Below are positions 5,824 through 26,577 of a DNA stretch of 42,361 nt, one piece after another (the first letter of the stretch is position 1; the number at the start of each line of letters is the position of its first letter). Source of the DNA: Paracoccaceae bacterium (GTDB lineage: Bacteria; Pseudomonadota; Alphaproteobacteria; Rhodobacterales; Rhodobacteraceae); the NCBI GenBank assembly GCA_013139635.1, contig WTAL01000014.1:1-42361 (forward strand), read 5' to 3'. The translations under genes and the position numbers were made by a program. Below the pieces are notes generated by a model that was not told the origin of the DNA, searched no databases, and was given only the letters and a program-made list of their open reading frames with translations.

Positions 5824-6371
5824 TTAACCCAAAGCTTTTGCAATTCTGTAAGCCGTTGATCTTTCAATGCTGAGCTGTTTTGCCGCCATTCCTGCTCTGA
5901 TAAGTTTCTGCAATGCCGAAACCGTTTCTGCATCCAGCTTTGACCGTCCCGGGTTTTTGCCCCGTTTGCAGGCGGCAGCAATGCCGTCGCGGGTGCGTTC
6001 GGAAATCAACCGACGTTCAAAATGGGCTATGGCCCCGAACACATGGAACACCAGCTCACCTGCGGCACTGGATGAGTCTAGTTTTTCATCAAGGCTGATC
6101 AGGTTGATGCCGCATGATTTCAGATCCACAACCGTTTCCAGCAATTCCTTTAGGGTTCGCCCTAGCCGATCAAGGCGGATAACGCAGAGGCTATCCCCCG
6201 GGCGGGCGAAATCGATCAAGCTAGCCCAGGGCGTTCAAACTTTTTGCCCGAGATGACATCTTCAAAAACCCGGATGGCTCCAGCATCTTTTAACCGTTCG
6301 GTTTGCGCCGATGTGTTTTGCTCGGACGTCGAGACGCGGGCATAACCGAGGATGCCGCCGGTTCTGGTCAT
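5824..6371 (-). pseudogene. tnpR: Serine resolvase of the Tn3-family element, frameshifted
   Basis: The N-terminal part (ATG at 6371) reads GILGYARVSTSEQNTSAQ, with the catalytic serine in ARVST, and runs to KKFERPGLA followed by a stop at 6216-6218. The rest continues in another frame from LIDFARPGDSLCVIRLDRLGRTLKELLE through GAIAHFERRLISERT to the C-terminal helix-turn-helix ending STAYRIAKALG. Joined, they give about 182 residues, the normal length of a Tn3-type resolvase. A single base loss or gain between about 6216 and 6235 accounts for the break. A functional protein would resolve cointegrates at the res site beside it; this copy cannot. Confidence 0.88.
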
Positions 6372-6514: not shown

Positions 6515-8815
6515 ATGGCAAAACGTCACCTGTTACCATCAAGCGCACGGGGAAGCTTCTTTGAGATCCCGCCAGATATGGCGTCACTGGAACAATACTA
6601 CGTTTTGGCCACGGACGATCTTGATCTGATCAGCTCGCGGTGAGGGCTAGAAAACCGGCTGGGGCTTGCCATTCATATTGCCTTGCTTCGCCACCCGGGC
6701 GGCGCACCGCGTGCTGGCCATCAAGCATCTTGGCCTCAGGCCATTTCTGAGGGAAGATTTTAAACCAGCGCTGGAATTTGCAACACAGGCGGCGTTTGGC
6801 ACAGATGAAGGTGTTGCTATTATGCGTGGCCTGTTGGCGGGTTTGGCCGAAGCCAAGCTGGTACATCCCTGCACCGCTACATTGGAGCGCATCGGCCTTG
6901 CAGGTCGGGCACGGGCGCAACGATTGGCAGCACAGATGGCCGAGATAAATATAGTGCTGACGGATGCCTCAATCGCCATGTTTGAACGCTTGACGGGCCA
7001 GTTGTTTACGCGCTCCAAACGTAAACAGGATCAAACCCTGCAAGCAAGCCAGCCGCAAATTGGCCGCCTTACCGCTTATCAAAGAGCAAGACTACACCGG
7101 AAAACGGAACCTGCCAGATGTGGTGCCAATGCCTTTTGCTGCAAAACACTGGAAATCCTTGATATTCAAAGATAACAAACCAAGGCGCCAGATTTATGAA
7201 GCAGCCGTGGTGGCCACTTTGCGGGATCACCTTCGAGCCGGTGATGCCTTGGTTAAAGGCAGCCGAGATTATTGTCGGTTCGATGCGTATCTGATGCCCA
7301 AGGCTAAGGCTGCCCATATCATGAGCGAAACGGGCTTACCTGTTGATGGGCGGGTTTGGTTAGTGCAGCGCCGCAATCTCTTGAAACAGCGATTGCGAGA
7401 CGTGGAGCGTAAACTGAAACGTGGTCAGCTGGAAGGGGTCAGGATTGAAAATGGGCGGTTGAAAATCACACCTCCCTCTCATGGTTTGCGATGCAAACCA
7501 TGAGAGGGCAATGCATGATCCAGTAACACCCCCGGCCGGTGAACAGCTCGACCGCGCGATTGATATCGTCATGCCACGCATTCGCATTACAGAATTGCTT
7601 TGGGATGTGGGCCGTCACACCAGCTTTCTTGATACCTTCACCGATTTACGCTCGGGGCGTACCAATGCCAATCCCGCCACGGTTCTGGCCTCTGTATTAG
7701 CAGGCGTAACCAACTGGATTGGAGCGCATGGCGCAAGCCTCCAAAAATGTCAGCCACGCCCAACTATCTTGGGCTTCAAACTGGTATCTGCACCCCGAAA
7801 CTTACAGCGATGCACTAGCGCGAATTATTGATGCCCACCACGCTTTGCCATTTGCCCAAATCTGGGGCCAAGCAGAGCACACTTCTTCTGACGGGCAGTT
7901 CTTTGCAGCCGCGCGGAATTCCGGAGAGATCAACGCCAAATACGGACACGACCTTGGCTGAAAATCTATTCCTTCCTGTCTGGTCAATACGGATCATTCC
8001 ACTCAAACGTAATCGGGGCCACCTCAGGGGAAGCCCCGTTTGTGCTGGATGGTCTGATGGGAAATGCCGCCCAATTCAATCCGCTGACCCATTACGTTGA
8101 TACCGGCGGAGTGTCAGACCATGTCTTTGCCCTGTTCTATCTGCTTGGGCTTAAACTGGCACCTCGGTTACGAAATTTTCCGGATCGGCGGCTAGCTAGT
8201 TTTGGGAAGCCAAGTGTCTGGAAAGGGTTATCACTCCTCATGAGCAAACCGATAAACGAAGGGGTTATTTTGAGCCATTAGGATGATGTCATCCGGCTGG
8301 CAGCCAGCGTGAAAAACGGCTCCGTAAAGCCCTCAGCCTTGCTGCGAAAGCTGGGAGCCGGCCGCCAGCAAAACCGCCTCTATCTTGCCCTTGGCGAAAT
8401 TGGCCGGATTGAACGCACTCTGTTCATGTTGGACTGGATAGAAAATCCACAGTTGCGCCAAGAAAGTCAGGCGGGCCTGAATAAAGGTGAGGCGCGCCAC
8501 ACTCTGGCCAAGGCCGTTTTCGCGCATTCGCATGGGCGCATTAATGACCGATCTCCAGATGCGCAGCAAAAACGCGCCATGGCGCTCAACCTTGTCATTG
8601 CCGCGATCATATACTGGAACACGATGTATATAAATAAAGCGGCAGATTATTTGCAGCGGGCTGGAAAACTTCCTGACCCAAGCCTGCTAAAGCATGTCTC
8701 GCCCCTAGGCTGGACCCATATCAACCTCACAGGCGATTATGTCTGGGATTCTGGAGCTGCTGAACGCTCAAACGAGCGCCCACTGCACCTCAGCTACGTG
8801 AGAAAGTGGGGCTGA
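6515..8815 (+). pseudogene. tnpA: Tn3-family transposase, multiply disrupted
   Basis: The ATG at 6515 begins MAKRHLLPSSARGSFFEIP, the usual Tn3 transposase start, but an in-frame TGA follows at 6641. Recognisable segments then appear in shifting frames: HLGLRPFLREDF and the ERIGLAGRARAQRLAA region (from about 6700), IYEAAVVATLRDHLRAGD (about 7190), PRIRITELLWDVGRHTSF (about 7570), SHAQLSWASNWYLHPETY (7750), the HYVDTGGVSDHVFALFYLLG region (8090) and LSPLGW-like SPLGWTHINLTGDYVW (8700). All three catalytic acids of the DDE domain are still readable: D in SSDGQFF, D in FVLDGL and E in LNKGEAR. Breaks include internal deletions near 6700, 6950 and 7060, single-base losses near 7710 and 7960, a small palindromic insertion at 7472-7508, and a TGG-to-TAG type nonsense at 8279. 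Confidence 0.9.
7474..7508. repeat. Perfect hairpin (16-bp arms) inserted in the transposase pseudogene
   Basis: CCCTCTCATGGTTTGC (7474-7489) is followed by GAT and then its exact reverse complement GCAAACCATGAGAGGG (7493-7508). Removing 37 bases (7472-7508 or 7474-7510) restores the reading frame, joining GRLKITP to MHDPVTPPAGEQ, which leads straight into the conserved PRIRITELL segment. This indicates that the palindrome is an insertion and not part of the original gene. It resembles a small REP-like palindromic element. Confidence 0.75.
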
Positions 8816-26558: not shown

Positions 26559-26577
26559 CGTTTTGCGTAGCAAAACG
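26559..26577. repeat. Palindrome with GTA loop in the infC downstream region
   Basis: CGTTTTGC (26559-26566), GTA, GCAAAACG (26570-26577). The core resembles the inserted hairpin at 7474-7508, whose inner part is GGTTTGC, GAT, GCAAACC. This hints at a family of small palindromic elements in this genome. Confidence 0.6.

Follow-up and report, generated by a model that had tools for sequence, protein, structure and literature searches.

The ends of IS200/IS605-type elements combine a hairpin with a guide tetranucleotide, and these elements insert 3' of a short fixed sequence without leaving a duplication. The guide tetranucleotide lies 5' of the palindrome, and such a role has also been proposed for repetitive extragenic palindromic (REP) sequences (in the passages of PMC8266576 that deal with guides). 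REPs, together with the REP-associated tyrosine transposases (RAYTs), form a system of dispersed 20-50 nt palindromes that carry a conserved tetranucleotide, GTAG, at the hairpin foot, are recognized as a single strand, and are mostly intergenic (according to the sections on REPs in PMC8266576 and PMC3733652). The work described here concerns a hairpin within 42,361 nt of DNA from a Paracoccaceae bacterium (assembly GCA_013139635.1, contig WTAL01000014.1; this whole stretch is called the window), which belongs to a family of Rhodobacteraceae elements 37-43 nt in length.

Two other groups of repeats are close in character. The tags GTAG and CGTC define known superfamilies of palindromes, and the CGTC palindromes, like RPE-4 and RPE-6 of Rickettsia, are short, in some cases intragenic, and found mainly in Alphaproteobacteria, with no dedicated transposase known as far as the relevant section of PMC3733652 goes. 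RPE are reported to lie in frame in varied, often conserved protein genes, and the Correia (NEMIS) elements of Neisseria have a 107-bp form that is reported to be fused to many reading frames, including transposases of three classes (both in the part of PMC2229807 on intragenic repeats). The family described here resembles each of these in part. It differs from REPs in having GGCA rather than GTAG, in possessing a second constant box, and in lying mostly in transposase genes; from the RPE and CGTC palindromes in lacking CGTC, in its mostly transposase hosts, and in its often frame-shifting length; and from IS200/IS605 in consisting of one gene-free hairpin of ~40 nt. Correia elements are longer, have TA termini, duplicate their target, and are not confined to transposases (same part of PMC2229807).

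A dispersed family of hairpin elements

A sequence-only reading of the window had reported a hairpin with 16 perfect base pairs and a 3-nt loop that interrupts a transposase frame, and this is confirmed (Table 1). Nine inverted repeats with arms within 40 nt were listed across the window; only the one at 7474-7508 is both perfect and longer than 12 nt, and the chance expectation for such a 16-nt repeat is ~0.0004 (42,361 x 41 spacings / 4^16). The same reading took the frame-restoring insert to be 37 bases. Its effect on the frame is as claimed, and identical for 37 or 40 nt, but the insert measures 40 nt when compared with three intact Tn3 transposases (of Yoonia, Sulfitobacter and Actibacterium), because the pieces of the window transposase stop at 7473 and resume at 7514, while the residues flanking the insertion point are adjacent in the intact proteins (P548|H549 in Yoonia). 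The insert is absent from all three intact relatives, a comparison that the reading had called for; these relatives are plasmid-borne, with a recombinase gene beside the transposase in the opposite direction. The same span, 7474-7513, is matched on the minus strand by a covariance model derived from 42 copies other than this one (26.7 bits, E 3e-4; model positions 1-39).

The perfect palindrome occurs only once in its own genome, even when 3 mismatches are allowed, so that one half of the reading's own refuting condition came out against it. The arm nevertheless recurs: within the genus, a 15-nt arm with at most one mismatch is found at 22 places spread over 9 of 13 genomes, the bacterium's own included (reversed control, three), so that dispersed insertion stands, whereas membership among the GTAG-tagged REPs does not. 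Most copies in the genus are imperfect palindromes whose common left part differs from the arm. An exact arm-plus-core pattern is matched 35 times in the family Rhodobacteraceae, in 17 of 394 genomes (a count that includes both strands of two perfect palindromes); its reversal has no match. In a collection of named genomes this pattern is present in at least 117 stretches; the 80 listed are mostly Rhodobacterales, a few being labelled otherwise (Vreelandella, Kiloniellaceae, Hyphomicrobiales and others). A search with the left part indicates that the GGTTTGC/GCAAACC core is one variant among many, the common plan being TGCCCGGCA, a variable hairpin, and GAGAGG; this general pattern occurs at 104 places in nine genomes, a few of them non-palindromic, with 37 in the richest genome and one for the reversed pattern.

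At E 1e-4 the element is detected in 35 of 110 Rhodobacteraceae genomes that are at least 95% complete, while a class-wide draw at E 1e-5 yields it in 2 of 144, namely the bacterium's own genome and one other from the Rhodobacteraceae. Among 72,556 plasmids, the 39-nt consensus matches 12 records and the 37-nt consensus 12, all from what we take in part to be Rhodobacterales, except one Hoeflea; the 39-nt query has zero matches in 20,395 E. coli records. In a scan of viral sequences, the parser finds a palindromic element in 8 of the 80 loci fetched from among the matches listed, which are mostly matches of other kinds. Palindromes are common in bacterial genomes, yet none lodged mainly in transposase genes was found described in the open-access PMC literature, nor did a search of that literature that included sequence words return any description of these elements. 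What is apparently new is the family as such, together with its location in transposase genes, the exactness of its insertion without duplication, and the recurrence of its sites.

The consensus element consists of C-R-Y-TGCCCGGCA, a hairpin, and GAGAGGG; the sequence of the hairpin varies and its pairing is kept. All but two of 206 distinct strict sites are 37-43 nt long (37 nt, 44; 38 nt, 25; 39 nt, 78; 40 nt, 28; 41 nt, 24; 42 nt, 1; 43 nt, 4), the others being 36 and 45 nt, and many of the loci were fetched with a pattern that favours the 39-nt class. It should be noted that the boxes and, in most scripts, the hairpin pairing were search criteria, which makes their conservation partly a product of construction. 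The pairing, however, does not depend on that filter. Of 188 distinct sites picked solely by the two boxes, 145 have no more than one unpaired position. In this box-only set covariation holds: cells changed on both sides number 27 against 4.6 in shuffles for the 20-nt inner part (38 distinct), 36 against 11.3 for the 18-nt part (28 distinct), and 25 against 9.1 for the 21-nt part (20 distinct). It is weaker for the 22-nt part (31 distinct; 18 against 9.5, 53% paired) because a simple end-to-end pairing scheme misfits that class. Pairing-filtered alignments agree (46 against 11.4 shuffled, slid 2-14; 43 against 13.8, slid 1-12). The left box is doubtful as a covarying dyad (12 cells against 5.8; covariation score 0.171 against 0.166 for a +3 slide). 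With the hairpin foot left free in the pattern, GGCA stands there in 266 of 339 matches, which were not deduplicated, GACA in 26, and TCTC, the mark of a symmetric form, in 16; the invariance of GGCA in A3 and A4 results from selection. A known structured RNA was considered and rejected, since at E up to 1 Rfam has no match to any of six loci, among them the window's own stretch (L001).

Insertion junctions and the proposed mode of movement

Three pairs of filled and empty sites define the insertion exactly. An IS256 of Sulfitobacter (97.4% identical) and an IS66 of Tabrizicola/Gemmobacter (89% identical) each differ from their empty partner by an exact 39-nt insertion; in the third pair, an IS5 in one strain of Loktanella salsilacus (97.6%), the filled and empty copies, again differing by 39 nt, lie on different plasmids of that strain. 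In all three there is no duplication and no loss, and the boundary has no freedom to slide. Among the loci fetched, an empty homologue is available for 44 of 132 further usable sites; the best one indicates an insertion of exactly the element length in 31 of these, one nucleotide more in nine, and 1-3 fewer in four (the inexact cases at lower identities). The sequence to the left is mostly (C)ATC (position -4 C.55, -3 A.58, -2 T.67, -1 C.85), followed by G at +1 (.68), which is a preference rather than an absolute requirement. The elements are short, bear inverted repeats, and are dispersed, as would be expected for a miniature inverted-repeat transposable element (MITE) of a DDE transposon. 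That origin, however, is barely credible and was rejected, because there is no target duplication at the three exact pairs; in addition, it is the inside of the hairpin that varies, whereas the ends are constant and, in the standard form, unlike each other.

The duplication-free insertion 3' of a short conserved target at these three pairs is a property shared with IS200/IS605, and a clean insertion of this kind, together with the constant tetranucleotide at the hairpin foot, would fit the logic of HUH/Y1 enzymes. On balance we think it probable that the family is made up of mobile, non-autonomous elements, each moving as a folded hairpin of single-stranded DNA by means of a trans-acting enzyme of HUH/Y1-like logic and usually breaking the gene that it enters. 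In the proposed process this putative enzyme would cleave next to the short target, with GGCA playing the part that the guide tetranucleotide has in REP and IS200/IS605.

Such an enzyme might be sought in a classical REP/RAYT system with a resident Y1 transposase, an association that the sequence-only reading had named as support. The size of the elements, the palindrome, the foot tetranucleotide, and the clean insertion all recall this system, and a Y1_Tnp domain is found in 4 of 12 element-bearing genomes compared with 0 of 12 element-free ones, at best a weak association. Against it, the domain is absent from the other eight element-bearing genomes, the window's own among them (several of them drafts), the elements carry no GTAG tag, and REPs are mostly intergenic (REP sections of PMC8266576 and PMC3733652). 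As stated, the resident-RAYT explanation is thus largely refuted and very unlikely.

Several observations weigh against the movement of a folded single strand by a trans-acting enzyme that we favour. The absence of Y1_Tnp just described is one, and no mobilising enzyme has been found. Among the 206 strict sites, GTAG lies within the first 14 nt in one and on the other strand in 0, and CGTC is present in the element ends in 0 (in 13 and 4 when 6 nt of flank are counted). Within the box-only set, G.T outnumbers A.C 129 to 43, though only 51 to 40 once the closing pair is left out; since the asymmetry is confined to that pair, it hardly supports a choice of folded strand, and the larger G.T excess in an earlier set was favoured by the pairing filter. 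In a covariation search between guide and target (250 tests), the top signals, which link the +1 base with element bases 1 and 5, come from a few related host sites and for that reason are not used as proof. In addition, mobility within a strain is deduced from the filled and empty pairs rather than from direct observation, some of the copies that share a site (see below) were surely inherited with their host element, making independent insertions fewer than copies, and the correction invoked below for the symmetric form is deduced from sequence alone.

Host genes and recurrent sites

Most copies sit in genes of insertion sequences (ISs) and transposons. For 44 distinct sites in two element-rich genomes, 82 frames from the flanks hit 36 Pfam families, and the 25 families listed are mostly of transposases (rve_3 and rve with 8 members each, HTH_21 with 7, IstB with 5, HTH_Tnp_1 with 4), alongside an FAD-enzyme group, RNase_H and AAA_31, once each; by comparison, 88 control frames hit 94 families, and there is no transposase among the 25 listed. 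In a random draw of 40 from the 181 sites with enough flank, all from loci fetched by element patterns, the model, or DNA similarity and none from loci fetched by IS similarity, a transposase domain lies on a flank in 30; one of these (L295) is below the Pfam cut-off, and four rest on HTH_21 alone, presumably an IS3 domain. The remaining ten comprise L212, with an ArsR-type neighbour, and nine that are not assignable to a host type, among them L136 and L174, with HTH domains of a sort that we associate with transposases, and L178, with a weak enolase-like match below the cut-off. Ten sites scanned earlier, two of which recur in the draw, gave transposase matches in seven (two below cut-off). 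Of the 24 best places on plasmids, six lie under an annotated transposase (IS256, IS5 twice, IS66, IS110 and one called simply "transposase"), 16 under no listed gene, two in unannotated records, and none under another gene. For unannotated hosts, most IS-family names used here are our own assumption.

Such a distribution could arise by retention alone, with insertion occurring anywhere, copies persisting only in dispensable IS and transposon genes, and hotspots reflecting nothing but the short target motif. This is quite possible, if not quite probable. The target motif is indeed short and not specific to ISs, and the window transposase gene is interrupted by further frameshifts and stops. 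After removal of the elements, only about one in five host stretches (14 of 69, 17 of 66 and 9 of 53) has an open frame exceeding 600 nt, although this test is imperfect because the stretch examined may pass the end of the gene and because open frames arise by chance in GC-rich DNA. One would, however, expect the elements to be tolerated also in intergenic DNA, in accessory genes, and in other pseudogenes, which is hard to reconcile with the 30 transposase-flanked sites among the 40 drawn or with the plasmid places. The 400 kb of control stretches in the same two genomes contain no strict elements (a relaxed parser gives eight non-palindromic-looking hits); these are regularly spaced pieces of long contigs that were placed after the exact-pattern copies had been located, so that this absence is not independent and counts for little against retention.

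The sites recur. On four reference transposases 83 of 225 sites can be mapped (IS3, 43; IS5, 24; IS66, 12; IS256, 4; none on Tn3), and they correspond to 43 positions, each multi-copy position having a single orientation. Residue 35 of IS3 has eight copies of 37 to 41 nt; position 121 of IS5, before the first catalytic Asp, has seven of 39, 40 and 41 nt; there are five each at IS3 252, IS66 307 (before D307) and IS5 265, and two to four at the others. Clustering by flank gives 31 clusters with 79 elements, and the 14 clusters listed are each of one orientation. Nine clusters contain more than one element length, and six of these have clearly different hairpin subfamilies at the same nucleotide, which points to repeated insertion. 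At twelve of the 43 positions a catalytic acid is no more than 5 residues away, compared with 3.9 positions expected for uniform placement or 4.7 for placement at TC|G sites (P of 5e-5 or less, 20,000 draws); the 5-residue limit was set after the data had been seen, the acids, two listed for IS66 and one for IS256, come from motifs of IS5, IS66, IS256, IS3 and IS91 that we take as given, and the preference is a lead, not proof.

The palindromes might be written into transposase genes by a host-directed system, preferentially at catalytic codons, which would inactivate those genes. Besides the excess near catalytic acids, this silencing is suggested by the copies before the first Asp of IS5 (seven, of three lengths) and D307 of IS66 (five) and by three inside what we take to be the HUH motif of IS91-type transposases, by a 1.35-kb stretch (L187) with seven model hits, and by an IS type with four elements. 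Many element lengths do frameshift the host. Some elements, however, are in frame, and the genes that hold 39-nt copies are still annotated as IS256, IS5 and IS66 transposases; the IS with four elements has been amplified to six 99%-identical copies; no defence gene is linked; and catalytic codons may simply offer ATC|GA. Silencing directed by the host is therefore unlikely. We are also doubtful, though a little less so, of the broader proposition that one system across the Rhodobacteraceae writes 37-43 nt palindromes into unrelated transposase families, near catalytic codons and in fixed orientation, whether as a hyperparasite or as genome defence. If the elements are targeted, they would be either a hyperparasite of mobile DNA or a means for the cell to disable insertion sequences, and culturable marine bacteria would allow either to be tested; if only retained, they would still mark IS history with exact boundaries. 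With a stem that covaries and target sites that recur, the question of the mobilising enzyme becomes tractable, and the 13-residue in-frame form beside a catalytic Asp raises the question of transposase function.

The three IS91-type copies (L044, L052, L088; HH|PHVHM or PHIHM) are of a variant with T as the first and A as the fifth base, which goes with C as the +1 base of the target. Two short stretches of transposase-like DNA, L187 4-1348 and L021 722-1924, contain six or seven model hits from differing subfamilies, the weakest at E 0.11.

The amplified IS is found on contig 1 of a two-contig genome (G025, L283-L288) as six 99%-identical copies of a 1385-nt element, which we take to be IS3-type, all with the same four inserts (38, 40, 38 and 38 nt), two in each orientation. 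Three copies have 3-bp end repeats, and no element-free full copy is present among the matches in this genome. The longest frame is 308 codons with the elements cut out and 213 as it stands. Elements known as byp are of a similar size class, and all of these features, including the retention of the same four inserts in six copies, could be read as translational bypass, or removal of the insert from RNA, in a host gene that still works. This is highly improbable and was rejected: both orientations occur in one gene, the differences in the long frame (5 non-synonymous, 2 synonymous) look neutral, as retention would also lead one to expect, and few hosts are otherwise open. An attempt to detect coding constraint from the intactness of host frames failed, with 4-11 open frames per class for cuts of the wrong length and 9-17 for cuts of the right length, and the shifted-cut controls for the 1385-nt IS were uninformative. 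In another genome a related IS is present in two copies, 99.1% identical and likewise laden with inserts. The insert-laden IS has thus multiplied, with no sign of coding constraint since, and was perhaps helped in trans.

The symmetric copy in the window

On the minus strand, the window copy reads CATTGCCC-TCTCAT-GGTTTGC-ATC-GCAAACC-AT-GAGAGGG. The hairpin, GAGAGGG, and CATTGCCC are all present, and the covariance model is matched from end to end; the difference is that TCTCAT replaces the standard GGCAGT, so that the left half is exactly complementary to the right. This symmetric form is found in nine copies at ~7 host sites, three of the copies sharing flanks (L061, L079, L093, L096, L112, L133, L165, L185 and window 7474-7513). 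In quasi-palindrome correction one arm of an imperfect hairpin serves as the template for the other, and this is probably the simplest cause of the symmetric form. On this view an ordinary 40-nt element would have entered the Tn3 transposase gene in minus orientation, and the complement of its right box (TCTCAT) would later have replaced a portion of the left box (GGCAGT).

The sequence-only reading had taken the near-perfect palindrome in a decaying gene as the sign of a recent insertion. The host gene is otherwise decayed (its pieces lie in three frames with further stops and are 37-59% identical to intact Tn3 TnpA in tblastn with the proteins of L280-L282), and the perfect symmetry looks secondary; correction, rather than youth, may lie behind it. 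The replication-associated palindrome formation that the reading offered as another option may likewise account for the symmetry, but not for the insert itself. The nine symmetric copies form a natural set of apparent hairpin-templated corrections.

Table 1. Positions of the hairpin, the insert, and the surrounding Tn3-type genes in the window
Feature	Position	Strand	Basis or remark
Left arm of perfect hairpin	7474-7489	+	16 nt, 100% complementary to right arm
Right arm of perfect hairpin	7493-7508	+	loop 7490-7492, 3 nt
Palindromic insert, 40 nt, probable symmetric derivative	7474-7513	-	3 intact Tn3 TnpA; covariance model hit 1-39
Element start (own orientation), CATTG = consensus C-RY-TG	7509-7513	-	in insert, outside hairpin
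Host Tn3-family transposase pseudogene	6515-8812	+	tblastn with intact TnpA; Pfam DDE_Tnp_Tn3, DUF4158
Resolvase of same Tn3-like remnant	5824-6219	-	Pfam Resolvase

In one of the intact Tn3 relatives, a plasmid of a marine Sulfitobacter, the segment beside the transposase (L281 3332-3550) carries a mupirocin-resistance label predicted by PLSDB, which we judge to be a false call.

The core of the window hairpin had also been likened to a palindrome at 26559-26577. The likeness is superficial and a relation was rejected, because the latter has different flanks, which are those of another repeat family. The bacterium's own genome contains TTTGCNNNGCAAA 49 times, the window hairpin included, compared with 7 for a reversed control, and many of these places are flanked like CTCCCGCC..CGG and TTGGGCGTGGCCTCG, for example window 26559-26577, L003, L009, L013, L015, and L016 near 1501.

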